Position numbers and translations under genes: made by a program. DNA of 41,417 nucleotides. Source: Methylorubrum populi. GTDB lineage: Bacteria; Pseudomonadota; Alphaproteobacteria; Rhizobiales; Beijerinckiaceae. Positions 239 through 35,992 of this stretch are shown piece by piece (the stretch's first letter is position 1; the number at the start of each line of letters is the position of its first letter). The stretch is taken from positions 1 through 41,417 of the forward strand of contig NZ_AP014813.1 in NCBI RefSeq assembly GCF_002355515.1, in the 5' to 3' direction. Below the pieces are notes generated by a model. That model worked only from the letters and a program-made list of their open reading frames with translations, did not search any database and had not been told where the DNA came from.

Positions 239-1435
239 CTACGCTTTCTCCAATATATGCCGACCTTTCGCCAGCATCGGCGTGACGATCGGCATCGTCA
301 GCATTGTCGATCCGATAGCCACCAGAAGGAGCGTCGTGAAAAGATCAGAAGTAATGATCCCCTTATCCAGAAGAACGGTTATGAAGATTATCAATATGAG
401 GGCCTTGGTCTGTAGAAGCCATCCTATAAGCAACGACTCGGACAGTTCCCATTTGAGGATGCGCCCCGATGCGACCATTCCCAGAATCTTTGCTGCAACG
501 GAGACGGCGAGCAGGATGCCGGCTGCGACGAACGCGCCAGCGCCACCCATCTCCCAAGTAGTCTTCAAACCGGTCGAAAGGAAATAGAAAGGCATGATCG
601 ATATTAGGATGTTGTTTCTAAATGCATCCATCTTTTCAATCTTAAACCATTTGCTGTCGAGAACAGCTCCGGACAAGAATGCGCCTACCATGTAATGCAG
701 TCCAGCCCAATCCGCGCCAAGGCTGCAAAGAGCAAGCCATAGCAAACCATAAATCCACCGATCTTCGTCTTTTGCGGACGAGATGAGCTTGCGGATTATC
801 ATGGAGAACGGCACAAATAAGACGAAAAAGAGCGATTGCCGAGCAAGTCGCTCCACATCGATCAGGATCAAGGATAGAACGGCCCAGATCGCAACATCAT
901 CAAGGCTGGCGTATCGTAAAATCCTCTGACCCAGGCCAGTCCGAAGGATGGCCATGTTCTCCATCAAGAGGATCAGGATCGGCAGCGCCGTGACGGAGCA
1001 AGACATACCAACGCCGACCACTACCTGCCACGGTGCGCTATTCGGCCCCGCCCAATTGAAATGGGGCATGAGGACAGACGCGGCGATTGATCCTAGCGTC
1101 AGCGGCATAAGAAGCGCGAATGCAGCTACTGTTCCAGTTTCTCCGCGCTTCCGCCATGCTTCGCGAAGATCAAGCTCAATTCCAGCGATCCAAACAAACA
1201 GCATAATCGCCCACCAAGCGATGCCATTTATCGCGGTGAGAACCTGGGGGTTCATGATCGTGCCATATGTGCTTGGTGCCAACGATCCGAGAATGTTTGG
1301 ACCCAACAGTATTCCGCCTATGATCTGAACGACGACCAGCGGAGCCCAATCACTTCTACCAAGTAGACGCCAGACAATGTAAGGGGCGCCAAATATAACG
1401 AGCGTCGAGACGAGGAAAAGCTCTGTAACGGTCAT
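239..1435 (-). CDS. CPA2-type cation/proton antiporter
   Basis: 398 residues, nearly all in 11 to 13 hydrophobic membrane segments, with the glycine-rich LLGPNILG, a buried acidic pair in SLDDVAIW, and GAFLSGAVLDS and MPFYFLSTGLKT. These are typical of the Na+/H+ exchanger domain of the CPA2 family, but there is no C-terminal RCK/TrkA domain, so it is the short form. The inner-membrane protein would exchange a monovalent cation, or possibly an organic ion, for protons. It is the last gene of the cargo operon, 38 bases after the azoreductase gene. In a biosynthetic operon it may export product or protect the membrane potential; that role is inference. Substrate cannot be read from the sequence. 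Confidence 0.85.
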   Translation of the reverse strand: MTVTELFLVSTLVIFGAPYIVWRLLGRSDWAPLVVVQIIGGILLGPNILGSLAPSTYGTIMNPQVLTAINGIAWWAIMLFVWIAGIELDLREAWRKRGETGTVAAFALLMPLTLGSIAASVLMPHFNWAGPNSAPWQVVVGVGMSCSVTALPILILLMENMAILRTGLGQRILRYASLDDVAIWAVLSLILIDVERLARQSLFFVLFVPFSMIIRKLISSAKDEDRWIYGLLWLALCSLGADWAGLHYMVGAFLSGAVLDSKWFKIEKMDAFRNNILISIMPFYFLSTGLKTTWEMGGAGAFVAAGILLAVSVAAKILGMVASGRILKWELSESLLIGWLLQTKALILIIFITVLLDKGIITSDLFTTLLLVAIGSTMLTMPIVTPMLAKGRHILEKA

Positions 1436-1473
1436 GGAAAAGAAAAGCCTCTATCGAATAGCTCGTCAAGAAA

Positions 1474-2100
1474 TCACCAAGTGTCGGCGGCTGCCGCCAA
1501 GTCATTTCTGGCGTTTTCGATAGAAAGCTCAACGGCTTCTGGAGAGCCCCACTGATTTCCCGCGTTTACGGAACGGAAGTCGATCAGCCCCATGAACCCG
1601 AAGATAAAGCTCACATATTTAGTGAAATGGTCATACGCCTCGCCAGGAGTTCCCGGCGGATACTCTCCTGCACTTGCCCATACGAGCAGAAGCTTCTTTT
1701 TGGGGTCGAGTAGAGGACCAAAGCCCTTATCGGGGCTAAACGAAAACGTGTGACCCACTCGAACAATATTATCGATATATGCCTTGAACTGCCACGGAAG
1801 GGTAAAGTTGAACATCGGCGACGAAATGACAATATGACTTGCGCGATGAATGTCAGCTATCAAGCCGTCCGAAACAGCCAGAAGGTCGATCTGATCGACG
1901 GTGCGCTCTGGCGGTGGAGTCATGTTGGCCTTTATCCACGCATCGGACGGACCCTCCACGGGAGAAAGCCCGTAATCCTTTGAAATGGACCGGGCGTCCG
2001 GGTGAAGTGTGCTCCACTTATTGATGAATTGCTCTGCCAAGCGCCGGCTGACGGATTCAGAGCGTGGCGAAAAGTTGATGTAGAGGAGAGTGGCGGTCAC
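1474..2100 (-). CDS. FMN-dependent NAD(P)H azoreductase/quinone reductase-like flavoprotein
   Basis: 208 residues with a flavodoxin-like fold. INFSPRSESVSRRLAEQF near the N-terminus is the FMN phosphate-binding segment, and SPMFNFTLPWQFKAYIDNI (residues about 93-111) is the AzoR family signature around the isoalloxazine ring. Length fits AzoR (about 200). The family reduces azo compounds and quinones by two-electron transfer from NAD(P)H. The start overlaps the amidase stop by four bases (2097-2100), so translation is probably coupled. In this operon it could supply reduced flavin to the halogenase-like enzyme or detoxify a quinone intermediate; neither is shown by sequence. Related reductases are sometimes controlled by Rrf2 regulators, and one is encoded divergently at 9831. 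Confidence 0.82.
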   Translation of the reverse strand: MTATLLYINFSPRSESVSRRLAEQFINKWSTLHPDARSISKDYGLSPVEGPSDAWIKANMTPPPERTVDQIDLLAVSDGLIADIHRASHIVISSPMFNFTLPWQFKAYIDNIVRVGHTFSFSPDKGFGPLLDPKKKLLLVWASAGEYPPGTPGEAYDHFTKYVSFIFGFMGLIDFRSVNAGNQWGSPEAVELSIENARNDLAAAADTW

Positions 2101-3611
2101 AGGGCAACTCCGTTTTCTTGAGCAATCGACAGTTCCAGAGCGAGAGCTGCCGAGATTGAAAGATGGTCGCCGCCGGGGTGCGCGACGATCTGAACAGCTC
2201 GGGGCAGTCCTTCACGTCCCATAGCGATCGGCGCGACGGTGGCGGGATTACCCAAGGCGTTGAAGATCGCGCAGCTCGCGATATCGAATGGGTACAGGAA
2301 GGCCCTGTTGTGACGTGGAGCTGCCCCAGGCACAGGAGGGCAGATCAACAGCGCATCGGGCGCGAGCATCGCCGACAGCTCGTCCGCAAGGGATTTCCCG
2401 CGGTCGGACCAGCGCTTCCAATATCGGGGTCCGGTTTGGTCTACGCGGGCTGCGAAGGCCAGGATAAGGCCGGCTGCGGTGTGTGTTCCGCGGCCGACGA
2501 ACTGGGCTGAGGCCTCTCGGATCAACTTCACCCGTGACCCGTTGCCGATCATCAGACCGAGATCAAAGTCGGCCGCCGACCGCAGCGTACCGAGCCAGAT
2601 GAGAAAGGCATCGCGCAGGAGATCTGCACGCACCTCTTTTACGCTCGCTCCCCATGTTTCCAGATGGCGGGCTGCGGTCTCGATCGCGGCGACTTGAGAT
2701 GGGTCGAACCGTCTGGAGCCCCAAATGGTCGGCTGCGGCAGCAGATAGACCGTTTTTCCAGCAATGGTCGCCGCGGAGGGAGCCTCCCGAAGCGGATCGT
2801 GGGAGAGGCCTGGCTGAATGCCGTCCGCACCCGCGACTACCTTGAGCAAGGGCCACAGGTCGCGGGCGCTCTTTGTGATCGGACCAGGTGTGAAGAATTG
2901 CGCTAAGGCGCCGGCGTGAGCGGTCGAGCCCTGATCCATAGGCGTGTGGCCGGTCAGGGGCACAGCGCCCGCACTCGGCTTGTGAGCGAACAGTCCGCAA
3001 TAGGCGGCGGGTATGCGTACTGATCCGCCCCCGTCTGCACCCATTGCCGCCGTCACTGCGCCTGCGGCTACCAGCGCGGCATCGCCGCCAGAGCTACCCC
3101 CCGGCGTCCGTGTTGGGTTTTGCGGGTGAAGAGCGCGGCCAGTCAGGCGGTTCACTGTCTCCGGCCACAGCGCCATTTCCGCCATAGACCCCAATCCGAC
3201 GATGACCGCCCCTGCCGCCCGCAGCCGCGCGACTACACTTCCGTCCTCCTGGGCGACACGGTTTCGGTTCAAGCAAGAACCCATCATCCAGGGCGCGCCG
3301 GCTACGCGCAGCCCCTCCTTGACGGTGATAGGCAATCCCAGCAGTGGATGGGTGCTCAGGGCCGCCATGCCGTCCTGAAGAGCAACCCGATCTGCGGCCT
3401 TCGCATCGCTTCGGGCTTGGTCCTCGTTGAGCCAAGCCAGAGCGCCCAGCCGCGGACCCGAACGCCGGAGGCGTCCGAGGGCGGCTTCCGCGAGATCGAC
3501 GGCCTGCAATTCGCCGCTGGCCACGGCGCGCGCGATCGAACAACCGTCGTCCACCGCAGTGAAAGGGGGGCCAGGGCAGAGATCGGACACTGTGGCGGCG
3601 TCGCCGATCAT
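2097..3611 (-). CDS. Amidase-signature family amidohydrolase
   Basis: 504 residues. The Ser-cisSer-Lys triad is recognisable: Lys98 in LPITVKEG, the glycine/serine loop GGSSGG (171-176), and the nucleophile Ser197 in DGGGSVRIPAA. The family hydrolyses C-N amide bonds; it includes fatty-acid amide hydrolases, GatA and aryl-acylamidases. The usual GSDTGGS is GADGGGS here, still compatible with catalysis. Overlaps both neighbours by four bases. With an N-acyl amino acid synthase in the same operon, a plausible substrate is the N-acyl amide it makes, or the enzyme could transfer the acyl amide to another acceptor. That assignment is inference. Confidence 0.85.
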   Translation of the reverse strand: MIGDAATVSDLCPGPPFTAVDDGCSIARAVASGELQAVDLAEAALGRLRRSGPRLGALAWLNEDQARSDAKAADRVALQDGMAALSTHPLLGLPITVKEGLRVAGAPWMMGSCLNRNRVAQEDGSVVARLRAAGAVIVGLGSMAEMALWPETVNRLTGRALHPQNPTRTPGGSSGGDAALVAAGAVTAAMGADGGGSVRIPAAYCGLFAHKPSAGAVPLTGHTPMDQGSTAHAGALAQFFTPGPITKSARDLWPLLKVVAGADGIQPGLSHDPLREAPSAATIAGKTVYLLPQPTIWGSRRFDPSQVAAIETAARHLETWGASVKEVRADLLRDAFLIWLGTLRSAADFDLGLMIGNGSRVKLIREASAQFVGRGTHTAAGLILAFAARVDQTGPRYWKRWSDRGKSLADELSAMLAPDALLICPPVPGAAPRHNRAFLYPFDIASCAIFNALGNPATVAPIAMGREGLPRAVQIVAHPGGDHLSISAALALELSIAQENGVAL

Positions 3612-5365
3612 GCAGCCGCCGCTTCTGTTGGCTCGTGTGAATTTACCGTATTTTCACGATGCCCCGAACCAATAGCTCTCCCTGCATGGTTCGCATGGTC
3701 ATGGTACAAAAACGCATAGGGAGGCTGAAACTCACTACGCTTGAACGGGTCGGACGATGCCTCACGTTCGTATGTCCAAGGAGCCACACGTAACAAAGCA
3801 GAACGAGCGATATCAGCGAACGCAGGGACAAGTTGAGTTGCTGCAAGAGTCCAGTATCTAGGTTTCCCTATAACATCCAGCAGCGAGATTGCTTTCAAGC
3901 GCAGAGAGGCGCGTTTCAGAAAATATCTGCTAATCAGCTTTCCGCGAGGAATGTCATCGGGTCTGTAATAGCTAAATGGTACTGTAAGCTCGTACAGCGC
4001 AGGCGCCCGCCGAATAATCGAATGAGGGTCGTCAGTGCGCGCAAGGGCGTCGAGCAGCTTCGGAAAAGGGTAGACAGCCGGTTGAGACCCAGGAGGGTAT
4101 CTTTTAAGTAGCTTTGCTACTTGCATAGCGACACCGGCATTGAGAAATGCGCCGCTCATATAATTTGGAACAACAAGGTGGAAATACCCCATGTTGGCGA
4201 CCACAAGGGTCCAAGCCATTTTGATGGGGTCGTCCATTATTTCGTACCAGTTACTCCACTGGTCTTGTAAGGCGAGCTGCGCGCGAAGATGAGATTCCAT
4301 TGCCCCAACATATGAGGGGGTGAGAGAGCCGTTTTCATGCTTGCGTATGATCGATGTGATTTGCGGAATCTGGTGTGCGAGATAGGCTATTCCGGCGCTG
4401 TTAGCCGGATCAAAGGTGAAACCCGCGTCGCCCAAGAGGAACCAACGTCCTTTCGGGTCATAATAGCTTTTAGCTTCGTACATATAATTGTAGTATCGAC
4501 TTTCATCGACCTTTCGCCCGGATAATACAAATCGCGCCAATGAGGGGTGATCCCTCTCAAGCACTTCAATCAGCTTATCCATGCTCATTGTTTTATCGCC
4601 GAGCATTTCAGGTCTGTAGGTAATGCCGAAGCTCACCAAATCGGCACCGGAGGCAGAGCGCATCGGAATGACCCAAATCCAATAGCCGCGGCCATAGAAA
4701 TGATGGGTCACATAGTATGAGTCGAAGCAATGATGCTTTATCTTAGAAAGGTTGAGGCCCGTGAGAATTTCACGCTTGAACCCTTCTAGTCTGAACCAGT
4801 AACTGCATCGCTGATAGGCTGGCTCAGCCTGCAAATGGAGTTGTTTCGTAAGGAAGCGAGACCGACCCGAACAGTCAATGACGTAATCGGCCTCTATTGT
4901 TTCGATCGCATCTTGATTGGTTTTTATATCAACCCGGTGCTTTATTTTTGGCTCGCCCGACAGATGTACATGCTGGACACGCCCCTTTATAGGAGAGGAA
5001 ATGGCATCTACCCGCCGACCCAACTCGCGGTCAAAGCTATGTCGGTTCAGATTGTACGACGGTAAGCGGATGATGCCAGGAGCTTCGTGTTGGATATACT
5101 CTGGTCCCGCTCCAGATGCGTCACGGGGAAGCTTGAAATAATAAGTGAGGCCATATTTATGTAGATGCTCCTCTTCTAGGTGATCGCCTAATCCCAAGGC
5201 TTTGAGGAACTGAACTGTGACCTCCACCGTCGACTCGCCTACGACGGGAAGGCGATCATCGCCCGCGTCGATTATGGTGAGGCTGGCATCCGGTAGCTGG
5301 TTGGCCAGGTAGAGAGCGGCCAGCTTGCCGGAAAGGCCGCAGCCAATGAGCGCGATCTTTGTCAT
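3608..5365 (-). CDS. Flavin-dependent halogenase-like FAD oxidoreductase
   Basis: 585 residues, somewhat longer than typical tryptophan halogenases (about 500-540). The N-terminal Rossmann motif is IGCGLSGKLAA (residues 7-17). GESTVEV (43-49) resembles the GE(A/G/S)T motif of PF04820. Lys70 in HLHKYGL sits where the catalytic lysine of PrnA/RebH lies. WIWVIP (229-234) fits the WxWxIP motif that separates flavin halogenases from monooxygenases. GDAGFTFDPANSAG (312-325) matches the second FAD contact. These suggest a two-component enzyme using reduced flavin from elsewhere. Base composition looks clearly AT-richer than the backbone. Overlaps its neighbours by four bases. A non-halogenating oxidoreductase of the same fold remains possible. 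Confidence 0.75.
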   Translation of the reverse strand: MTKIALIGCGLSGKLAALYLANQLPDASLTIIDAGDDRLPVVGESTVEVTVQFLKALGLGDHLEEEHLHKYGLTYYFKLPRDASGAGPEYIQHEAPGIIRLPSYNLNRHSFDRELGRRVDAISSPIKGRVQHVHLSGEPKIKHRVDIKTNQDAIETIEADYVIDCSGRSRFLTKQLHLQAEPAYQRCSYWFRLEGFKREILTGLNLSKIKHHCFDSYYVTHHFYGRGYWIWVIPMRSASGADLVSFGITYRPEMLGDKTMSMDKLIEVLERDHPSLARFVLSGRKVDESRYYNYMYEAKSYYDPKGRWFLLGDAGFTFDPANSAGIAYLAHQIPQITSIIRKHENGSLTPSYVGAMESHLRAQLALQDQWSNWYEIMDDPIKMAWTLVVANMGYFHLVVPNYMSGAFLNAGVAMQVAKLLKRYPPGSQPAVYPFPKLLDALARTDDPHSIIRRAPALYELTVPFSYYRPDDIPRGKLISRYFLKRASLRLKAISLLDVIGKPRYWTLAATQLVPAFADIARSALLRVAPWTYEREASSDPFKRSEFQPPYAFLYHDHANHAGRAIGSGHRENTVNSHEPTEAAAA

Positions 5366-6963
5366 GAGGATGCGTCCGCGGTTTGGAACGAAGGGGAGGG
5401 ACGTTGGTATCGGCCGGGGGCAATCAGCCCGTCAGGGTCGATCACAGCCGAGATGGATTGCGCTAGCCGCCAGTGGTCGTCCGCAGTGCTGGTGGCTTCT
5501 TCCATAAGCGCGCTGTGAAAGCGGTAAGGCTGGAAGCCGAGCTTGCGTCCTTCATCGATCAAATGACGCAGGCATTCCAATGCGCGGGCGCTATTCGCTT
5601 CATCTCGTGGAAAAACGAGCGGTATCGTACTGTCAAACCCCGAAGCGGAAACAGTAGAGAATGTTATGGCGGCGTCAAATCCATGTTTCTGGCAAATGCT
5701 ATTTGCCATTTCAGTGTAAAGAGATACGGAAGCAGCTCGCATCGGAACTATAGGTGCGTACCAAAGAAGCCCGCATTTATCTCTTGCTGGATTGAGGTTG
5801 CTTTCTGGAACGTCACCAGCCCGCTTGCTGTATGCCAAAGGCAGAGCAAATTCCTCTGGATAGCCGGATAGTACGTTATGCGCCGAAGCAACCGAGTTTT
5901 GAAGCGCAGTGAGTTTCCGCCCGATGAGCGGAATGCCCGAGCAAAACCGCAGGAGTCGAAGTTTCATAGGGTTGATGAATACGACTCGACGCGACAGGGG
6001 GCTTAAAGCGCGGCGTATGATCTTCCGGCCTGCGGCTATCGCTGCCGGATCGCCATAGAGAACGCCCGTCCCGATCCACGGCGCCCCGGCTGACGCGGAG
6101 CTTCCCGCCACCAGCGAAACTCTGGCCGAGTTCATCAGGTTGATGCCCCCGATCATGAGACCTGATCGGGTCATCAACTCCCTCACCGCCGCGACCGCGG
6201 CCGGAAGGTGGCGCTCGTCTGACAGCCAGAAGCAGAACATTTCGGTTCGCTTGGGCCGAGGGGCGAGCTGGATGGTGGCGCTGGTGACGATCGCACCGCC
6301 ATTCTGAGCGAACAGGCCGTCAAGGTAAGGGCCGACACCCCAGCGGTAGACCGGAAGCCGGGACGCGTCGGTTCCGTTCGGATCGAGAAAGGGAGAGGTG
6401 TATCGCGTGCCGCTCGCCAGCACTGCCGTCAGGCCGAGGACGGCTTGGAAGTGGTCCGCGATCGGGGTGAGGCCATAGCCTCGCTCAAGGGCATTGCCGA
6501 GCAAGCTGCAAGAAGGACCGGCGCCCGTCGTGGGAACCATGTACGAAGCATCCCGCGCCTTGAGAAATCGATCAAGATCGCCCTGGGTGACGCCTGGCTG
6601 GACCGTTACGATACCGAGTTCTTCGTCAAACGAGAGGATGCGGGTCATCCCGCTCAAATCGAAAATGACTTTGGTGTCGCTGGACGCCGGGCGGATCGAG
6701 CCGTAGCCCCAGTTTCGGCCGGTCGATACGGGTTGAACGCTCAAGCCGTGCTGGCGCGCCAGCGCAAGTGCCCGCTCCACTTCGTCTGTCGTAGAAAGCT
6801 TGACGATGACAAACGGCGCGCAATCATCGCCATGAGCAAAGGTGTCTCGACCTCTTACCAAGGCCTCCCGATCATCGAGCAGTCGGCCCGCATCTCCACA
6901 TTCCGAGATCGCATCTCGAAAGGCCCAAAGCTTTGCAGTCTTGCTGTTACAATCCATCTTCAT
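5362..6963 (-). CDS. VAO/PCMH-type FAD-linked oxidase (4-cresol/vanillyl-alcohol oxidase-like)
   Basis: 533 residues. The N-terminal FAD-binding_4 domain shows the pyrophosphate loop STGRNWGYGS (80-89) and GNALERGYGLTP, which in this group contacts FAD. The C-terminal half, with NPMKLRLLRF, KCGLLWYAPIVPM and ITFSTVSASG, follows the pattern of p-cresol methylhydroxylase and vanillyl-alcohol oxidase, which oxidise 4-alkylphenols through a quinone methide. Such an activity would fit an N-acyl tyrosine or tyramine substrate made by the neighbouring synthase; that is inference. It overlaps the methyltransferase stop and the halogenase start by four bases each. The covalent flavin attachment residue could not be located with confidence. 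Confidence 0.8.
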   Translation of the reverse strand: MKMDCNSKTAKLWAFRDAISECGDAGRLLDDREALVRGRDTFAHGDDCAPFVIVKLSTTDEVERALALARQHGLSVQPVSTGRNWGYGSIRPASSDTKVIFDLSGMTRILSFDEELGIVTVQPGVTQGDLDRFLKARDASYMVPTTGAGPSCSLLGNALERGYGLTPIADHFQAVLGLTAVLASGTRYTSPFLDPNGTDASRLPVYRWGVGPYLDGLFAQNGGAIVTSATIQLAPRPKRTEMFCFWLSDERHLPAAVAAVRELMTRSGLMIGGINLMNSARVSLVAGSSASAGAPWIGTGVLYGDPAAIAAGRKIIRRALSPLSRRVVFINPMKLRLLRFCSGIPLIGRKLTALQNSVASAHNVLSGYPEEFALPLAYSKRAGDVPESNLNPARDKCGLLWYAPIVPMRAASVSLYTEMANSICQKHGFDAAITFSTVSASGFDSTIPLVFPRDEANSARALECLRHLIDEGRKLGFQPYRFHSALMEEATSTADDHWRLAQSISAVIDPDGLIAPGRYQRPSPSFQTADASS

Positions 6964-7832
6964 AGTGGTGCGGCCAGTCCGCCCAGCTTTAGAAATAACC
7001 GAAGCTGGTTGAGTTCGGACTGACGGCTGCGACTCAAAGTCTGGACCGCACGCCGATAAGCAGTAACTACCGATGGCCGCAGCGGAGTGGAGGGAAGCGG
7101 TGTGCTCACGACTATCACGAGCGGCGCGATGATAGTACGATGCAACTCGATCCCGACCCGATCGAGTTTGACAACCTCGTCGGCAAAATCGGTTGGCAGA
7201 AAGGCTGCTTTCAGGCTCGCGCGATAATCCTCGCTCAGGGCCGTGCTTTCAGTCCGAGCCACGAGGGACACGAACACTTCGATGGCTTCCATGGAACGAA
7301 GGCGCCCGAAATCCATCAGATAAAGCGTGCCATCCGCGCGCAATACTCGCCCGATTGCGCTAAAGCAGCGAGTGAGGGCAGATCGATCGGGGAGATGATG
7401 TAACGCCATTGATGATATTACCGCGTCAGCGGAAGACGTTTCAAAATCGTCCAGCGTCGAGAAATCTCCCGAGCGATAGGTGACATTCCCCAACCCGAGC
7501 TTTGAGGCTTGCTGCCTTGCGGCGTCGAGCATCGCAGGCGCAAGGTCAACACCAATGAACTCGACGGCGGGGTTCCATTGAGCAATAATATTCAGTAACC
7601 GACCTGAACCGCAGCCGAGATCGATTACCTTGTCGCCCTCTTTCAAGCGAGCTGATACTTGAAGGGCGTTGTAAAGGTAAGGTCCATACAGTGCGCCGTC
7701 CTGATCGCCACAGCTTGAATAGTCTGCGACTGTCTGACTGGCGTTCATCACTAGCTCAGTCTCGGGAATGCGATCGGCACGACGCCCTTTGAAGGCCTCA
7801 TGCAGGACAGCTCGTACAATGGCGACGCTCAT
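6960..7832 (-). CDS. SAM-dependent class I methyltransferase
   Basis: 290 residues from ATG at 7832. This start is chosen because it overlaps the upstream stop as ATGA (7829-7832), the pattern used throughout the operon; the frame is open further upstream to 8060, inside feeM. Motif I is VIDLGCGSG (69-77), the acidic residue binding the ribose is in IGVDLAP (93-99), and motif IV is near SSADAVISSMALHHL. This is the Methyltransf_11/25 fold used for O-, N- or C-methylation of small molecules. Substrate is not readable; a phenol or carboxylate of the pathway product would fit. Confidence 0.85.
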   Translation of the reverse strand: MSVAIVRAVLHEAFKGRRADRIPETELVMNASQTVADYSSCGDQDGALYGPYLYNALQVSARLKEGDKVIDLGCGSGRLLNIIAQWNPAVEFIGVDLAPAMLDAARQQASKLGLGNVTYRSGDFSTLDDFETSSADAVISSMALHHLPDRSALTRCFSAIGRVLRADGTLYLMDFGRLRSMEAIEVFVSLVARTESTALSEDYRASLKAAFLPTDFADEVVKLDRVGIELHRTIIAPLVIVVSTPLPSTPLRPSVVTAYRRAVQTLSRSRQSELNQLRLFLKLGGLAAPL

Positions 7833-8740
7833 ACGGTCCCCTCCGCCATGAAGCTGACATCGGGGAAGTGCCGGTGTAGGACTCTTGCCTCGCGCTCTTG
7901 AATCGTTTCCGCTGACAACGAGAATCGATTGAATAAGCGGAGAACATCCACGTCCTTCAGTGGTCCGGACGACCGCTGACTTTCCGCATAGTGCGGATGG
8001 TCTGAAAAATTGAACCGATCTGTTGGGCCACAGAAAAAGCTGTAGAAGTCCCGGCGACATTTCGTATCAACGATACGATCGCGGTAAACGCGGTAAAACC
8101 GTAACTGTGCCCCGAGTATATCGAGCCTCAATGGTAACGAGGCGGCGCCTTGAAGATCCTCATAACGCTGAGGCGGGCCGATAACCTCAAATAGTAATAT
8201 GTTCTTATAGAAGAACTGTGCTGATGGATGCACGGCTATGAGGAGATCGTCCACGCGCCGCCATTGCCGAGCCCAGCGGTAGAGCATGTTATAAAGCATG
8301 ATGGACAGGCCGCTCCGCCGGTAGTCTGGCCGAACGGCGAGAGCGCCCACCTCTGCTACGCTGCGGAACAACTTTCTGATAGCGACAGCCTCGGCAGGGT
8401 GGACCTTCTCCATTGGCAGGCCAAGGTCAGAGTCCTCGATAAGCGAGATTGTCCCGATAACCTCGTCACCTGACTTCGCAATAAATGTCGTCGTAGTTGG
8501 CAGAAGACTTATGATCTGTAGCCGCATCTGCCCTTCACGAGCGATGCCGCGCCGTACATAGCTTTCTTTCAACAATTCAAAGGCGGCCGCCATCTCTGCC
8601 TCTGACGAAGCAATCTTAAACTCGACGCCAGGGAAATCCAGATCGCTCGCTGCAATGCGGCGAACGGCTACATGACGCATCAATCCGGGAGGTGTAAACC
8701 GGAGGTGAGCATTCTTAAAGCGGCCGATCTTATCCGACAT
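7829..8740 (-). CDS. FeeM-type N-acyl amino acid synthase
   Basis: 303 residues with a GNAT-like core. EVGALAVRPDYRRSG (130-144) carries the acyl-donor pyrophosphate loop seen in N-acyl amino acid synthases and related to LuxI, and HPSAQFFYKNILLFEVIG (171-188) is a conserved family segment. Known members (FeeM and environmental-DNA NAS enzymes) move a long fatty acyl chain from acyl carrier protein to the amino group of tyrosine or another amino acid. No dedicated acyl carrier protein gene is present, so host ACP or acyl-CoA would be the donor. It is the second gene of the cargo operon, 11 bases after the alkC-like gene, and overlaps the methyltransferase gene by four bases. Residue specificity cannot be predicted here. 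Confidence 0.8.
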   Translation of the reverse strand: MSDKIGRFKNAHLRFTPPGLMRHVAVRRIAASDLDFPGVEFKIASSEAEMAAAFELLKESYVRRGIAREGQMRLQIISLLPTTTTFIAKSGDEVIGTISLIEDSDLGLPMEKVHPAEAVAIRKLFRSVAEVGALAVRPDYRRSGLSIMLYNMLYRWARQWRRVDDLLIAVHPSAQFFYKNILLFEVIGPPQRYEDLQGAASLPLRLDILGAQLRFYRVYRDRIVDTKCRRDFYSFFCGPTDRFNFSDHPHYAESQRSSGPLKDVDVLRLFNRFSLSAETIQEREARVLHRHFPDVSFMAEGTV

Positions 8741-8751
8741 ATCGCACTATC

Positions 8752-9495
8752 CTAAGAAAGTGATCGCAAAGCCCTTGTGGTTATTCGCTTCGTCCGCGTA
8801 TCAGCGGGAGCCATATCCTTCCATCTTGAACACAAATCCTTGACCCACCCAGGGTTATCCTTGGCGGCGTCGTTGAGCCAATTTGCTACCGAGTCTTGTG
8901 CGTACTTCTCTGCTTCGAGACGCATCGGCTCTAGGATTGGAAGGCCAAGCGATGGATTGCTCCGCAGATCAGCAATGTGCTTGCACCAGACACCGCGGGG
9001 GCGCAGGGCTTCGACCGCAAATCTGCGAATGTTTACGTCGTTATCATGCGTCCACGTCGAAAGAATACCGATCGAAGCATCCAGATCGGATACAAGTATC
9101 GGCCGAACAGCGAGCCAAGCCCATTCCCGCACACCAAAATGTAAATCAGCGGCAAATGGGCGAACCATTGCGACAACCTGGTCAGAAGATGAGCGAGCGT
9201 GATGATGCGCCAGCCCAAATACCGAAAGACCGCGAACTGTATCGCTTGCGTGACTTGAAAGGAGCTCAAGGAGTTCAGCGCCACCATAGTTAAGGAGCGC
9301 TTCTCCATACAGACTCATCTTGCGCGAGATACCCTCGCGACTGAAGTCCGGAGACCGGAAATCAGGAACGATCGCCTTGAGGAGAATATCGAAGTCGATT
9401 TTCAGAATTTCGGCGAGGGTGCTAGAAGGAACTTCTCCGGACGATAAGGAGGCGATTCGTGCGGTGTCGATCCTAGCCTGCATATCGCCGCCCAT
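8752..9495 (-). CDS. AlkC/AlkD-like HEAT-repeat DNA alkylation repair protein
   Basis: 247 residues of helical HEAT-like repeats. HFGVREWAWLAVRP (119-132), RRFAVEALRPRGVW (157-170) and SVANWLNDAAKDNP (202-215) are the strongest family markers; the last closely resembles the VANHLNDIAKDHP type segment of AlkC proteins. The family excises N3- and N7-alkylated bases without flipping them out of the helix. It is the first gene of the biosynthetic operon. AlkD-family glycosylases occur as self-resistance genes in clusters for DNA-alkylating products (YtkR2 for yatakemycin is known). Start is uncertain: ATG 9495 or ATG 9483, neither with a strong ribosome site. Catalytic residues were not verified by alignment. 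Confidence 0.75.
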   Translation of the reverse strand: MGGDMQARIDTARIASLSSGEVPSSTLAEILKIDFDILLKAIVPDFRSPDFSREGISRKMSLYGEALLNYGGAELLELLSSHASDTVRGLSVFGLAHHHARSSSDQVVAMVRPFAADLHFGVREWAWLAVRPILVSDLDASIGILSTWTHDNDVNIRRFAVEALRPRGVWCKHIADLRSNPSLGLPILEPMRLEAEKYAQDSVANWLNDAAKDNPGWVKDLCSRWKDMAPADTRTKRITTRALRSLS

Positions 9496-9584
9496 TTGGC
9501 ATAGCGATGAAGCCCACGCCCGTAAGGTTCATAACCGCCCCCCAGACACTCATGCCGTCGTAAAGGCAATGGATACAGGAACCA

Positions 9585-9613
9585 TAGCTATTAGCGTTTG
9601 TGCGGCGTGTCAA
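9585..9613 (-). promoter_or_regulatory. Predicted sigma70-type promoter of the cargo operon
   Basis: On the minus strand a perfect TTGACA (9613-9608) is followed after 17 bases by TAGCTA (9590-9585). Transcription would start near 9578, about 80 bases before the first gene. It is the best match in the divergent space 9496-9830; the minus-10 is imperfect. Confidence 0.45.
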
Positions 9614-9830: not shown

Positions 9831-10322
9831 ATGCCTGACGGTCTAGGTAATAAGGGAGTGGACCAGAGGTTTGCGGTTGCAGTTCATGCTATGTGCGTCC
9901 TGTCCTACCATAGCCCAGAGCTGTCAAATGCGTCGTTTGTAGGCGACAGCATTTCAGTGAACCCACTTATAGCGAAGCGAATTATCGGCTCGATGGTGAA
10001 GGCTGGCCTCGCGGAAGCCGTCTTGGGCGCCAGAGGCGGATATCGTTTGGCGAGGTCGGCGGATCAGGTTTCGCTTTGGGACATATACCATGCGGTTCAG
10101 GGGAATGGTCCATTCCGAAGCCGATACGGAATGCCCGAGTCGAACTGCGATGAAGGTCGTGCCATCGACCGGGTTGTCTTCGATCTTTACGAAGATCTGG
10201 ATCAAGAGATCGAACGGCGACTTAGCCAGATAACCTTAGCTCAAATATTGCTGGCGGCGGAGCGCGTTGAGCGCATACCGCTCGATGCGATACAGGTCGG
10301 TGCCTTCTCGACCCAAGCGTGA
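9831..10322 (+). CDS. Rrf2-family transcriptional regulator
   Basis: 163 residues with an N-terminal winged helix: RFAVAVHAMCVLSYH, then IAKRIIGSMVKAGLAEAVLGARGGYRLA, the Rrf2 recognition helix and GGY(R/K)L wing. The Fe-S ligands of IscR/NsrR are not present; only Cys22 and one Cys in SNCDEG are found, so it resembles the cluster-free members that sense ligands or thiol state. GAGGA eight bases before ATG 9831 is a good ribosome site. It is transcribed away from the cargo operon and probably controls it. The IS element begins four bases after its stop codon. Confidence 0.85.
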   Translation: MPDGLGNKGVDQRFAVAVHAMCVLSYHSPELSNASFVGDSISVNPLIAKRIIGSMVKAGLAEAVLGARGGYRLARSADQVSLWDIYHAVQGNGPFRSRYGMPESNCDEGRAIDRVVFDLYEDLDQEIERRLSQITLAQILLAAERVERIPLDAIQVGAFSTQA

Positions 10323-10326
10323 CTAG

Positions 10327-11943
10327 CCTGTCTTATTCACGAGGGCAGTGGATCTGTGGTGGCGAGCGTAGCGTAAGGCATTGATAGGGCTTAGGGATTG
10401 GGTGCTGACACCAACCTTTTTCACCTGATCGAGCCCGCCATGCCCGCCATGTCCGATCCTACGGTGCTCCCGTTCGCGTTTCCATCCGTGAGAGCCAAGA
10501 AGCTCACAGCTGCCTTCGATGGCGGACGCCTGTCCTCGGACGGCGGTGTCCTGCTGCTGGCCCAGGCCGCCCGACGGTTGGGCATCGCCGAGAAGCTCGC
10601 TGCGGTGATCCCGGACCGGCGCGATCCGAGCCGGATCGTGCATCCGCTTCCCGAGATCCTTCTGGCGCGCATCCTGGCCATCGCCTGCGGTTACGAGGAC
10701 GCCGACGACCTCGACCACCTGCGCGCCGATCCTGCGTTCAAGCTCGCCTGTGGGCGGCTGCCCGAGAGCGGCGTCGACCTGATGAGCCAGCCCACTGTCT
10801 CGCGGCTGGAGAACACCCCCGGCCTGCGCGACCTGATCCGGCTCGGGCGGGTGCTGGTCGACCTGTACTGCGCCAGCTATGCCACGCCGCCCGAGGCCGT
10901 CACGCTGGATATCGACGACACCTGCGACGTGGTCCATGGCCAGCAGCAACTCTCGCTGTTCAACGCCCACCACGATGCGCGCTGCTTTCTCCCCATCCAC
11001 GTCTACGACACTGCCACCTCACGCCCGGTGGCGATGATCCTGCGTCCAGGTAAGACGCCCTCTGGCCGCGAGGTCCGAGGCCATCTGCGCCGCCTCGTCC
11101 GAGCGATCCGCCATCACTGGCCCAAGACCGCGATCACCATCCGGGGCGACGGCCATTACGGGCGGCCCGAGGCCATGAACTGGTGCGAAGACAACGGCGT
11201 CGCTTACGTCTTCGGCCTGACCGGCACGAAGGCGCTGGCCGCCAAGGTCGAGGATATCGCCGATACCATCCGGGTGGTGCGGGCCATCGGCGACAAGGAT
11301 GCGGTGCGCGGCTTTGCCGAGACCACGCACGCGGCCAAGTCCTGGCGGCAGCAACGCCGCGTCGCCGCCCGCATCGAGGCGACCCGCCTTGGTCTCGATA
11401 TCCGCTACGTGGTCACGAACATCGCCACCGGCACGCCCGAATGGCTCTACGCCGAGCTGTACTGCGCCCGCGGACAGGCCGAGAACTTGATCAAGCTCCA
11501 CAAGGGCCAGCTCGCCTCCGACCGTACCTCGTGCCGGAACCCCGCCGCCAACCAGATGCGGCTCGTCCTGCACACCGCTGCCTATTGGCTGATGCTCACC
11601 GTGCGCGAGGCCGTCCCGACCGCGCACCGCCTCGCCAGGGCCGAGTTTGCAACAATCCGCCTCCGGCTGCTCAAGCTCGGAACCCGTATCCGCGAGACCG
11701 CTGCCCGCGTCCGCCTCGCCTTCGCCGCCGCCTGTCCAGAAGCCGACCTGATCCGCCACCTTGCGACTGCGCTCGCCCCGGCACCGGCCTGAACGACGGG
11801 GCTGCGACGCCCCAACGAACCCGCTCCCGTCCCTCCATCGCCGACCGAACAATCCCGATCCACACGCGTCAGAACAGACGAGCGATCGCGCGCGCCATCA
11901 GCCCAAAACGCAGCGTACGCCGATGCCCGATGAATAAGACGGG
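10327..11943 (+). mobile_element. Complete IS1380-family insertion sequence (1617 bp)
   Basis: The left end CCTGTCTTATTCA (10327-10339) and the reverse complement of the right end, CCCGTCTTATTCA, are terminal inverted repeats of the IS1380 type. Both sides are flanked by CTAG (10323-10326 and 11944-11947), a 4-bp target duplication. It holds a single transposase gene. Intact ends plus a perfect duplication mean a recent, simple insertion just behind the regulator gene. Confidence 0.9.
10440..11792 (+). CDS. IS1380-family transposase
   Basis: About 450 residues from ATG 10440; the frame is open back to a TTG at 10398, and ATG 10449 is also possible. FDGGRLSSDGGVLLLAQA, DLMSQPTVSRLEN, the first acidic catalytic site in LDIDDTCDVVHG, and the later ITIRGDGHYGRPE and CRGQAENLIKLHKGQL segments follow the DDE pattern of IS1380/ISEcp1 transposases. 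The reading frame is full length, so the element is probably still active. Confidence 0.9.
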   Translation: MPAMSDPTVLPFAFPSVRAKKLTAAFDGGRLSSDGGVLLLAQAARRLGIAEKLAAVIPDRRDPSRIVHPLPEILLARILAIACGYEDADDLDHLRADPAFKLACGRLPESGVDLMSQPTVSRLENTPGLRDLIRLGRVLVDLYCASYATPPEAVTLDIDDTCDVVHGQQQLSLFNAHHDARCFLPIHVYDTATSRPVAMILRPGKTPSGREVRGHLRRLVRAIRHHWPKTAITIRGDGHYGRPEAMNWCEDNGVAYVFGLTGTKALAAKVEDIADTIRVVRAIGDKDAVRGFAETTHAAKSWRQQRRVAARIEATRLGLDIRYVVTNIATGTPEWLYAELYCARGQAENLIKLHKGQLASDRTSCRNPAANQMRLVLHTAAYWLMLTVREAVPTAHRLARAEFATIRLRLLKLGTRIRETAARVRLAFAAACPEADLIRHLATALAPAPA

Positions 11944-31631: not shown

Positions 31632-31711
31632 TTGACATTCTCGCGTCGCTAAGCTATTTCTCTACTTGTCGGTTCGAGGAACCGACCCGGTTCGGATGCG
31701 GCGGCAACCGC
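31632..31711 (+). promoter_or_regulatory. Promoter and structured leader of the DUF932-korA operon
   Basis: TTGACA (31632-31637), 17 bases, TATTTC (31655-31660); TTTACA lies ten bases upstream. The predicted transcript begins near a perfect hairpin GTCGGTTC-GAG-GAACCGAC (31668-31686) and a second one GCGG-CAA-CCGC (31701-31711). The same order and spacing is found at 37292-37371 before parA. Confidence 0.6.
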
Positions 31712-31746
31712 GTCCCAATCGGCCAACTCATGCAGGAGTTAGTCCC

Positions 31747-32571
31747 ATGCAACTCACCAGCAATTTCGCCAAGCGCAGCCCCGCCCTTCGTTCCGCTCGA
31801 CCGCTTGCGGATGACGAAATCGCCCGCGTCGCACCGTCCATCTTCGCCGCCGAGCCCCACGGCAGTCGCTCGGAACGCTACACCTACATTCCGACGATCG
31901 ACGTTCTGCGCGGCCTGCGTAAGGAAGGGTTCGAGCCCTTCATGGTTGTTCAGACCCGCGTGCGGAACGAGGCCAAGCGCGACCATACCAAGCATATGAT
32001 CCGGTTGCGTCATGCCGACCAGATCGTCGGCCGCGAGGCGAACGAGATCATCCTCCTTAACAGCCACGACGGCACCAGCAGCTATCAGATGCTTGCCGGC
32101 ATGTTCCGCTTCGTCTGCCAGAACGGCATGGTGTGTGGCGACACCCTTGCGGACTTTCGCGTGCCCCATAAAGGCGATGTGATCGGTCAGGTCATCGAGG
32201 GCGCCTTCACGGTGCTCGACAGCTTCGAGGCCGCGAACGAGCAGCGCGAGGGGATGCAGGCGCTGCGCCTTACTGATGGCGAACAGGGTGCGTTCGCGCG
32301 TGCGGCGCTGGCTCTGAAATATGACGACGAAGCCCCTGCCCCGATCACCGACGCGCAGATTTTGATCCCGCGCCGCTTCGAGGATCGCGGTTCTGACCTC
32401 TGGACCACCTTCAATCGCGTACAGGAGAACTTGACCAAGGGCGGCTTGACTGGCCGCACCCCTCGCGGGCGCGGGACGCGGACCCGCCCTGTCAACGGCA
32501 TCGACCAGAGCGTGAAGCTCAACCGCGCCCTTTGGGTGCTGGCCGACGAAATGCGCCGCCTCCGCGCCTGA
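31747..32571 (+). CDS. DUF932 family plasmid protein
   Basis: 274 residues from ATG 31747 (GCAGGAG upstream). YTYIPTIDVLRGLRKEGFEPFMVVQTRVR and HDGTSSYQMLAGMFRFVCQNGMVCGD are the core of DUF932 (PF06067), common on plasmids, phages and ICEs and of unproved function. First gene of a likely operon with the next three genes, ending in the KorA-like repressor. Confidence 0.85.
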   Translation: MQLTSNFAKRSPALRSARPLADDEIARVAPSIFAAEPHGSRSERYTYIPTIDVLRGLRKEGFEPFMVVQTRVRNEAKRDHTKHMIRLRHADQIVGREANEIILLNSHDGTSSYQMLAGMFRFVCQNGMVCGDTLADFRVPHKGDVIGQVIEGAFTVLDSFEAANEQREGMQALRLTDGEQGAFARAALALKYDDEAPAPITDAQILIPRRFEDRGSDLWTTFNRVQENLTKGGLTGRTPRGRGTRTRPVNGIDQSVKLNRALWVLADEMRRLRA

Positions 32572-34538: not shown

Positions 34539-35129
34539 ATGCAGGTTCAGGTCAAGAAACTCGAAGGAAGCTGGCGGCTCGGATACGCCTTGCACAAGCA
34601 TACCCTGTCCAGCGTCTATTTGGGCGATGACGAGTATGGACATCCTCGCTTTGATACCACCCGATCAGAGCCAGGAGAGGCGCTCTATCAGCTCAAATAC
34701 CGAAGCGATTGGAACCAAGTTGCTCCTTTGGCGGCCCAAGTGCAGGCATCGTTGCTGCCTCTATTAGGCAAGATCGGTCTGATCGTCCCGATGCCGGCGT
34801 CAACCACGCGCGCCCGTCAGCCGGTTGACGAATTGGCTAAGGAGTTGGGCCGCATTACCAACATACCCGTGTTCAACAACATCGTGGTTAAAGCACCTGC
34901 CCCGCAAGGCAGCTCCCAGCTCAAGAACATGCACTCGCGCGAAGAAAAGGATGCAGCCCTCGAGGGGCGGTTCAGTATTAACCCGGAAATCACGAATGAG
35001 GGCTGCTGGAATGCTCTCTTGTTTGATGATCTGTTTGATACGGGGGCAACGATGGATGCGGTCTGCAAGGCTCTAAAGACTTATAACAAGATAAAGCATG
35101 TCTATGCCGCATCGATAACGTGGAAGTAG
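34539..35129 (+). CDS. ComFC-like phosphoribosyltransferase-fold protein
   Basis: 196 residues from ATG 34539. The PRPP loop ALLFDDLFDTGATM (about 159-172) and the hood segment LIVPMPASTTRARQPVDELAKELG (about 81-104) are those of orphan type I phosphoribosyltransferases of the ComFC/GntX kind. There are no zinc-binding Cys at the N-terminus as in ComFC; instead there is a domain of about 60 residues (GYALHKHTLSSVYLGDD) that resembles the predicted amidophosphoribosyl-like companions. Its stop is directly followed by the SLOG-HTH gene. Possible nucleotide-processing role; substrate unknown. Confidence 0.75.
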   Translation: MQVQVKKLEGSWRLGYALHKHTLSSVYLGDDEYGHPRFDTTRSEPGEALYQLKYRSDWNQVAPLAAQVQASLLPLLGKIGLIVPMPASTTRARQPVDELAKELGRITNIPVFNNIVVKAPAPQGSSQLKNMHSREEKDAALEGRFSINPEITNEGCWNALLFDDLFDTGATMDAVCKALKTYNKIKHVYAASITWK

Positions 35130-35131
35130 AA

Positions 35132-35992
35132 ATGACGACAGTATTCATCGCAGGATCGATATCTATAAGCCGCTTGCACGAAAAGGTGCAGGAACGGATC
35201 AGCAAGATTGTTGGTTCATCCTTCGATGTAGTTGTTGGCGATGCCGATGGTGCAGACACCTCCATCCAGCAATGCTTGCAGACCTATCAGGCTGACAAGG
35301 TTACGGTCTACTGCACAGGCGACGAGCCCCGGAATAACGTCGCTGAATGGCCTGTCCGTCGCGTCCAGTCGAACGCCAGAGCGGGGAGTCGCGCCTTCTT
35401 CACAGCCAAAGACATAGAAATGGCGCGTAGTAGCGACTATGGATTGATGATCTGGGATTGTAAAAGCACGGGGACGTTAAGCAACGTCATCGAGCTTTTG
35501 CGTTCGAAAAAGAAGTCAGTTGTCTTCGTCAATAAGAACAAGGACTTTGTCACCATCTCGGATAAAGCCGGACTAGAGCATTTAGTCTCGTTTATGTCGG
35601 CCCATGCGCGAGCAAAGGCGGAAGAAAAAATTGGTCTTTCATTAAAGATAGCGGGCATATCTCAAGAACAGCTTTCGCTCGAACCTATCGCGCCGCTGGC
35701 GAAATTAGATGACACGGCGGTTGTTTCCGAGCCTTCGAGCCGAGTTGAAGAAAGTCCGGCGCTCTCTGAAAGCATGAGGCTGCGGTCAGCGTTGATGACG
35801 GCCCTTAAAGAGCACATTGTTCGTACTCACCTAAGCCAATCGCAAGCCGCAAAAGTTTTCGGTGTCACCCAACCACGCATTTCCGATCTTACCCGCGGCA
35901 AAGCCGATGTGTTCGGGCTCGACGCGCTAGTAAATATGGCGGCGATGGCAGGGCTTCGAGTCGAGATGAACGTACATGAAGCGATGAGCTAA
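35132..35992 (+). CDS. SLOG-like nucleotide-sensing domain fused to an HTH
   Basis: 286 residues from ATG 35132; GTG 35120, overlapping the previous stop, is an alternative. The N-terminal part (about 1-150) has TTVFIAGSISI, a glycine/acidic GDADGADTSIQQ turn and DYGLMIWDCKSTGTLSNVIELLRSKKKSVVFV, the pattern of the SLOG/DUF2493 (YspA-like) Rossmannoid families thought to bind nucleotide-derived ligands. The C-terminus (about 215-280) is an XRE-like HTH with LSQSQAAKVFGVTQPRISDLTRGK. Ligand sensing coupled to DNA binding is the simplest reading. Its partner is the phosphoribosyltransferase just upstream. Confidence 0.7.
   Translation: MTTVFIAGSISISRLHEKVQERISKIVGSSFDVVVGDADGADTSIQQCLQTYQADKVTVYCTGDEPRNNVAEWPVRRVQSNARAGSRAFFTAKDIEMARSSDYGLMIWDCKSTGTLSNVIELLRSKKKSVVFVNKNKDFVTISDKAGLEHLVSFMSAHARAKAEEKIGLSLKIAGISQEQLSLEPIAPLAKLDDTAVVSEPSSRVEESPALSESMRLRSALMTALKEHIVRTHLSQSQAAKVFGVTQPRISDLTRGKADVFGLDALVNMAAMAGLRVEMNVHEAMS

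Follow-up and report, generated by a model that had tools for sequence, protein, structure and literature searches.

The window considered here is a contig of 41,417 bp (C5, NZ_AP014813.1) from the genome of Methylorubrum populi, which comprises 5.94 Mb in six contigs. Eight genes, all on the minus strand, run from 9495 down to 239 between an insertion sequence (IS) element and the contig start, and a regulator gene diverges from them. They form a real, conserved and mobile biosynthetic cluster; each kind of enzyme in it is already known, and the combination is new within the literature searched. The genes and their profile or structure matches are as follows.

8752..9495, minus: AlkC-type HEAT-repeat protein of 247 amino acids, candidate alkylpurine-DNA glycosylase and proposed self-protection gene
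7829..8740, minus: FeeM-type N-acyl amino acid synthase of 303 amino acids (PF21926, 133.7 bits, cut-off 27; FeeM 2g0b, 1.8e-7)
6960..7832, minus: S-adenosylmethionine-dependent methyltransferase of 290 amino acids (Methyltransf_31/25, 75 bits, cut-off 27, scanned with a longer start)
5362..6963, minus: flavoprotein of the vanillyl-alcohol oxidase (VAO)/p-cresol methylhydroxylase (PCMH) family, candidate para-phenol oxidase or dehydrogenase (FAD_binding_4, 78.2 bits, cut-off 26.4; PCMH 1dii, 1.2e-43)
3608..5365, minus: flavin-dependent halogenase-type enzyme of 585 amino acids (Trp_halogenase PF04820, 50.6 bits, cut-off 21)
2097..3611, minus: amidase-signature family amidase of 504 amino acids, candidate deacylase (PF01425, 236 bits, cut-off 27)
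1474..2100, minus: azoreductase-like flavoprotein, candidate quinone reductase (Flavodoxin_2 PF02525, 110 bits, cut-off 27)
239..1435, minus: CPA2-like cation/proton antiporter of 398 amino acids (Na_H_Exchanger PF00999, 93.9 bits, cut-off 26.2)
9831..10322, plus: Rrf2-family regulator transcribed divergently, a candidate sensor of redox state or electrophiles (PF02082, 89.7 bits)

A sequence-only reading made earlier had described a plasmid-borne biosynthetic operon of eight minus-strand genes at 239 to 9613, mostly joined by ATGA overlaps. All eight genes are present from 239 to 9495, and the right end of the claimed extent reaches some 120 bp beyond the start of the first gene, on its upstream side. 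ATGA overlaps occur at four of the seven junctions, namely synthase/methyltransferase (7829-7832), methyltransferase/VAO (6960-6963), VAO/halogenase (5362-5365) and halogenase/amidase (3608-3611). The amidase/azoreductase junction is a GTGA overlap (2097-2100), which brings the 4-bp stop/start overlaps to five of seven; the remaining two junctions are gaps of 11 bp (HEAT/FeeM) and 38 bp (azoreductase/antiporter). The enzyme assignments of that reading were upheld by Pfam domains above cut-off in the synthase, halogenase, VAO-type protein, amidase, flavoprotein, antiporter and methyltransferase, including the two proteins, synthase and halogenase, whose failure in a profile search had been named as refuting it.

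The FeeM domain covers residues 52-207 of the synthase at full model length. Residues 208-303 form a C-terminal extension of about 95 amino acids without a Pfam match and with a few columns conserved in all six clusters described below. The start of the methyltransferase is set at 7832 and not at the longer open reading frame (ORF) start at 8060, because its relatives align from 7832; its DLGCGxG motif is kept in all six clusters, and enzymes named C-, O- and N-methyltransferase are among its relatives in PDB. By the Pfam scan, none of the eight genes belongs to a polyketide or nonribosomal assembly line. The cluster has no carrier protein and would need none, since FeeM requires just an amine and a host acyl carrier protein loaded with an acyl chain.

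Relatives of the halogenase-type protein were sought in 84,980 species genomes by exact short peptide patterns. There were 14 pattern matches, five of which encode a relative; the five loci are a lower bound because the scan requires such exact patterns. They belong to Pannonibacter carbonis and Rhizobium sp. FKY42 (L005, L006), Defluviimonas denitrificans (L007), Pseudoalteromonas flavipulchra (L008) and Vreelandella stevensii (L009). The AlkC-type, FeeM, methyltransferase, VAO, halogenase and amidase genes stand together on one strand in all five loci, and thus in six of six with the window. Vreelandella has its AlkC-type gene between VAO and halogenase, and not in first place. Retention of the same gene set in five other genera speaks for the biosynthetic operon that had been claimed. 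When the core proteins of the six clusters are compared, their pairwise distances are correlated for all 15 gene pairs (0.965-0.993), a sign of joint inheritance; the near-duplicate pair L005/L006 inflates these values, which represent five lineages at most.

The other two genes of the eight are less constant. An azoreductase-like gene occurs in five of the six clusters, window included; it lies 3' of the amidase in L005, L006 and L007 and upstream, divergent and beside a MarR-type gene in L008, and it was not found in the scanned L009 locus. Antiporter homologues of 62% identity are present in L005 and L006. The L009 counterpart is a Na_H_Exchanger-family protein of 23% identity lying beyond an IS21-type element, and no antiporter was found in the scanned loci L007 and L008. 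The survey of neighbourhoods thus gives a core of six genes, with the azoreductase-like and antiporter genes accessory and the antiporter least conserved. Of the eight-gene unit described earlier, six genes therefore stand as the core, while the antiporter drops out of it and the azoreductase-like gene becomes accessory. An Rrf2 gene is divergent in L005 (81% identical) and downstream in L007 (57% identical); none was found in the L006 locus, and MarR-type genes are present in L008 and L009.

L005 and L006 share a single block of 11,005 bp with 91.9% identity, which covers the cluster; no further match was found outside it (loci of 21.7 and 19.6 kb, E 1e-10). A shared block with no match beyond it indicates a recent transfer of the cluster between genera. 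The flanks of the clusters hold further genes. In Pseudoalteromonas, a second methyltransferase gene is found downstream, and the divergent MarR-azoreductase pair upstream (L008:13280-14089, L008:4302-5453). In Vreelandella, the IS21-type element (IstB match) follows the amidase gene and is itself followed by the Na_H_Exchanger-family gene (L009:10256-14051). In Defluviimonas, a TauE/SafE-family exporter gene (L007:13804-14778, 76 bits) comes after the azoreductase-like gene, at the place of the antiporter of the window.

The repair protein falls below both relevant Pfam cut-offs (HEAT_2, 25.9 against 27.7; DNA_alkylation, 16.4 against 21) and was assigned through AlkC sequence matches and a predicted AlkC-like fold. 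In both the sequence and the predicted fold of the HEAT-like domain it agrees with the AlkC family, which is its closest relative, with AlkD further off; AlkD as the closest relative was ruled out by the same AlkC sequence matches and by the comparison of predicted folds. The DNA-repair protein named in the sequence-only reading is thus of the alkylation-repair type, with the refinement that it belongs with AlkC rather than the more distant AlkD and is a core member of the cluster. Close relatives (E 1e-30 or better) occur in three of 61 related genomes and in five of 200 genomes of the phylum, the own genome being included in both counts; one of the five in the phylum (G695) is matched over just residues 73-232, close to the end of a contig. 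Every cluster genome has exactly one AlkC-family match, and in all six it is the cluster gene (E 1e-5 in the own genome, 1e-8 in the others). The neighbourhoods of close copies were surveyed in five of the six other genomes, the G695 copy being left out, and no other cluster gene was found in any of the five stretches of 18-19 kb (E 1e-5). One match per cluster genome and no cluster genes beside the other close copies mean that the short form of AlkC makes up a general family, of which the cluster recruited and retained one member. The repair gene is therefore tied to the cluster, in six of six, and is not a housekeeping gene. Of all the results, this link tells most and is the best controlled. 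It hints at DNA alkylation by the product or by an intermediate, and the AlkC-type gene may protect the producer.

The halogenase-type protein carries GxGxxG, GES, Lys70, WxWxIP (229-234) and FxPxxSxG (318-325), all kept in six of six clusters. The GES, Lys, WxWxIP and DPxxSxG motifs are taken here to mark halogenases. A search scoring the best 8,000 candidates gave 78 homologues, with WxWxIP in 78, DPxxSxG in 76, GES in 75, a loose Lys-x-Gly (residues 51-110) in 73 and all four in 71; three of the seven lacking a pattern are shorter proteins without GES. Burkholderia, Pseudomonas, Collimonas and Snodgrassella are among the genera with such homologues. Nineteen of the homologues were aligned with it, 14 at 42-66% identity followed by a drop to 31-34%, and Lys70 and WxWxIP are invariant in the 20 sequences. 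The profile of these 20 sequences places halogenases first among solved structures (PltA 2.3e-26, CmlS 1.6e-24, then ChlB4, PltM and RadH). PF04820 above cut-off together with the four motifs puts the protein in the flavin-dependent halogenase family. The gene is rare and was found in its own genome only among 385 genomes of the class (E 1e-40), 248 of the family (1e-30) and 398 of the phylum (profile, 1e-60). For Pseudoalteromonas, it occurs in one of 98 genomes of the family, that genome itself, and in two of 369 of the class, the second being a distant homologue (G1431) with no other cluster genes around it in the stretch examined. A separate halogenase-family gene is located on the largest contig of the host (G000:C1:2696964-2698304, L001; PF04820, 298.8 bits, residues 2-449 of 458).

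In the VAO-type protein, Tyr87, Tyr480 and Arg481 align with Tyr95, Tyr473 and Arg474 of PCMH, presumably the phenolate site, and are kept in all six clusters. Together with the FAD-binding domain, these residues place the protein in the 4-phenol oxidising VAO/PCMH subfamily. Phenol oxidation had been proposed earlier, and a para-phenol substrate would fit the phenolate-binding residues kept in this alignment. The enzymes of the VAO family produce a quinone methide by oxidation para to the phenolate. The protein is related over most of its length to PCMH, eugenol oxidase and vanillyl-alcohol oxidase and has the Tyr/Tyr/Arg site in common with them, while being encoded, unlike PCMH, in a FeeM operon.

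The amidase shows TVKE, GGSSGG and DGGGSxRIP in six of six clusters, presumably the Lys/Ser/Ser catalytic motifs, and so belongs to the amidase signature family. Its solved relatives include urethanases, the colibactin amidase ClbL, the fatty acid amide hydrolase FAAH and aryl acylamidase. With an amidase and FeeM in one operon, the acyl chain may later be taken off again and so serve as a mask or prodrug group.

What the analysis establishes directly is which genes are present, that they are conserved and inherited together, their active-site motifs and the predicted AlkC-like fold; on these the following scheme can be built. The FeeM-type enzyme would transfer an acyl chain from a host acyl carrier protein to a para-phenolic amino acid or amine and so mask its amino group. 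The simplest acceptor would be tyrosine; the simplest amines to suit both the intact phenolate site and FeeM would be tyrosine or tyramine. The masked phenol could then be halogenated in the ortho position by the flavin-dependent halogenase and modified by the methyltransferase, halogenation and methylation being compatible with a place before or after oxidation. The VAO-type enzyme would bind the phenolate and remove hydride para to it, and the resulting quinone methide would end up as a tyrosine unit of the dehydro type or with a substituent at the beta position. Removal of the acyl chain by the amidase-signature enzyme might release the active compound. Handling and sensing of the electrophile could fall to the azoreductase-like flavoprotein and the Rrf2 (or MarR) regulator, and alkylated purines in the DNA of the producer could be cleared by the AlkC-type protein. 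A quinone-methide-like electrophile would explain why a protein of the alkyl-base repair type, a quinone-reductase-like flavoprotein and redox-type regulators are kept. Tyrosine, the halogen, the order of steps, the roles of amidase, regulator and flavoprotein and the alkylation of DNA by the product are all what we infer. A mobile cluster for a small reactive phenolic metabolite, made on a mask-modify-unmask plan and accompanied by an AlkC-type gene removing alkylated purines, is the preferred reading, held at a little short of even confidence. A more specific form of it is rather doubtful: a new family of minimal proteobacterial clusters without carrier proteins of their own, which would make a halogenated quinone-methide-type DNA alkylator from an acyl-masked, amidase-armed tyrosine, dehydrogenated at the benzylic position by the VAO-type enzyme, and whose AlkC-type protein would be the first of its branch to act as a self-resistance glycosylase.

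A number of observations count against the preferred reading. Both the product of the cluster and the acceptor amine of the FeeM-type enzyme are presumed ones. The relatives of the halogenase-type protein in PF04820 include non-halogenases, the LodB and GoxB maturases. In the VAO-type protein, Asn391 stands at the position of Tyr384 of PCMH, which is assumed to be flavin-linking, so the protein departs from the subfamily in this residue; covalent FAD binding is not universal in the family, so the protein is still counted as a member at family level, with no claim to a covalent flavin. The amidase might act on another amide, either making or hydrolysing it, and its gene differs in G+C (65%) from its neighbours (51-59%). 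In the alignment of the repair protein, the Glu of the AlkC AEFAIR stretch, taken to be the catalytic residue, is replaced by Trp127. Glu124, Trp125 and Trp127 (120, 121 and 123 in alignment numbering) are invariant in a 37-sequence alignment, and Glu124, one helical turn before Trp127, is a putative catalytic residue. AlkC relatives are also common, being found in 50 of 200 genomes of the phylum (E 1e-8) and numbering 6,141 database proteins; 45 of the 50 matches in the phylum are partial, mostly to the second half of the protein, in open frames of 300-590 amino acids. The AlkD2 family, the second-best fold match, is by the title of its paper without a critical recognition motif (PMC4433238).

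Unlikely but to be taken seriously is an explanation in which the product keeps its acyl chain, the amidase serves in turnover and the AlkC-type gene copes with ordinary stress. Such lipids are made by known FeeM-type clusters (PMC12479983), N-acyl alanine methyl esters are among the products of these (PMC11580390), and a methyltransferase beside FeeM fits methyl esters or ring methylation. However, general stress can hardly explain why an uncommon AlkC subtype is kept in six of six clusters, and the available part of the paper on N-acyl dehydrotyrosine clusters mentions no halogenase or amidase for them (PMC12479983). These clusters combine NasY with ThiF and nitroreductase genes (PMC12479983), and no ThiF-family or nitroreductase match was found among the eight window proteins (Pfam, E 0.1; the flanks of the relatives were not scanned). 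The operon is therefore not filed with the N-acyl dehydrotyrosine clusters.

Less of the preferred pathway is altered if the PF04820 protein is a flavin monooxygenase, the product being hydroxylated or of the quinone type without a halogen. This is improbable. LodB and GoxB, which are not halogenases, stand with CmlS as the best NCBIfam matches, all below cut-off, and the single-sequence PDB matches are weak (0.0021); yet Lys70 and WxWxIP remain invariant in the 20 aligned sequences, WxWxIP occurs in 78 of 78, and the best solved relatives by profile are halogenases. It is very improbable that the genes are an island for breaking down or detoxifying phenolic N-acyl xenobiotics. The amidase, VAO and azoreductase families are all known in degradation, with urethanases and aryl acylamidase among the solved amidase relatives, whereas FeeM and a halogenase-type enzyme are synthetic and the Pfam scan found no ring-cleavage gene among the eight. 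Co-location by chance on the plasmid, which the sequence-only reading had named as an outcome that would overturn it, can be dismissed for practical purposes: the IS element does adjoin the cluster (10323 onward), and its G+C does differ from that of the backbone, but the same six genes recur in five of five relatives elsewhere, by which this explanation is refuted.

The closest FeeM-type comparison is with the fee clusters of environmental DNA and with the stieleriacine, thalassotalic and kyonggic acid clusters (PMC12479983). They have in common with the window a committing enzyme of the FeeM/N-acyl amino acid synthase family, a methyltransferase nearby in some and a likely para-phenolic acceptor. 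Unlike them, the window has a VAO-type oxidase, a halogenase-type flavoenzyme, an amidase and an AlkC-type protein, and neither ThiF nor nitroreductase among the eight genes. The halogenases PltA, CmlS, PltM and RadH share the Lys, WxWxIP and FxPxxSxG motifs and the sequence profile with the window enzyme. A 2022 review gives the enzyme leading to N-acyl dehydrotyrosine as unknown and cites a suggested dehydratase (PMC8762209), and later work proposes a nitroreductase (PMC12479983). A VAO-type phenol-oxidase route to oxidised N-acyl tyrosine would differ from both proposals.

Self-resistance glycosylases are described in DNA-alkylator clusters, namely the AlkD-type YtkR2 of yatakemycin and C10R5 of CC-1065 and the HTH_42-type AlkZ of azinomycin and TxnU (trioxacarcin)/LldU (PMC8626424, PMC8934636, PMC9040887). 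The likeness to the window lies in a repair-glycosylase-family gene inside the cluster and, for the AlkD type, in HEAT-like repeats; the window differs in its AlkC branch, in the lack of a polyketide or nonribosomal assembly line within the eight genes and in proteobacterial instead of Streptomyces hosts. Two glycosylase families, YtkR2/AlkD and AlkZ/YcaQ, are named as removing bulky natural-product adducts (PMC8934636), and in the available parts of two papers AlkC is mentioned just for comparison or in references (PMC8934636, PMC9040887). If the preferred reading is true, the AlkC branch would join the two families named in PMC8934636 and the cluster would help genome mining for DNA-reactive metabolites that are made without an assembly line. 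No description of this gene combination was found in the literature searched, which lay mostly outside subscription papers and was mostly judged from listings. The cluster is compact and mobile, its gene content itself predicts how its product would act, and each enzyme is testable alone with synthetic N-acyl tyrosine.

Below-cut-off matches were obtained for the azoreductase-like flavoprotein (NADH-azoreductase NF010075, 2.4e-15; KefF, 0.007), the antiporter (TIGR00932, 6.5e-21) and the Rrf2 regulator (HypR, 3.8e-14). A Kef-type response consists of a CPA2 exchanger with a C-terminal KTN/RCK domain and KefF. Kef is reported to protect against electrophiles (PMC10224563). A Kef-type electrophile efflux module made of the flavoprotein and the antiporter was considered and rejected: the antiporter of 398 amino acids has Na_H_Exchanger only in Pfam, the KefF match is weak, and the antiporter is outside the core.

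The plasmid-borne location claimed earlier fits the contig, which carries RP-C replication protein, type IV secretion system coupling protein, MobC/NikA and relaxase families (profile scan) and ParA/ParB-like ORFs (identified by eye). Its transfer region matches a Roseomonas mucosa plasmid at 76.4% identity over 55% of the query. The cluster looks like acquired DNA because its G+C is 56% against 64% in the backbone. No PLSDB plasmid carries the cluster, as judged by a nucleotide search and by protein searches with the halogenase and FeeM; the protein matches (4 records for the halogenase, 15 for FeeM) are all below 60% identity, and none covers 80% of the query. In IMG/VR there were five pattern matches and no relatives. 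Scans for sigma-70 promoters (11, with 5.6 expected) and for terminators (6, with 10 expected) were not used as evidence. Other features of the contig are listed below.

10323-11792, plus: IS element with DDE transposase (transposase 10398-11792; DDE_Tnp_1_4, 535 bits)
31666-32571, plus: DUF932 protein on the plasmid backbone (192 bits)
34539-35992, plus: ShosT/PsyrT-like protein (PADLOC PsyrT 3.8e-9, ShosT 2.5e-4), overlapping an HTH_37 protein

The 78 bp at 10323-10400, an end of the IS element, match Methylobacterium/Methylorubrum plasmids at 86-95% in three PLSDB records. The ShosT/PsyrT-like and HTH_37 genes look like a toxin-antitoxin defence pair of the ShosTA/PsyrTA type on the plasmid.

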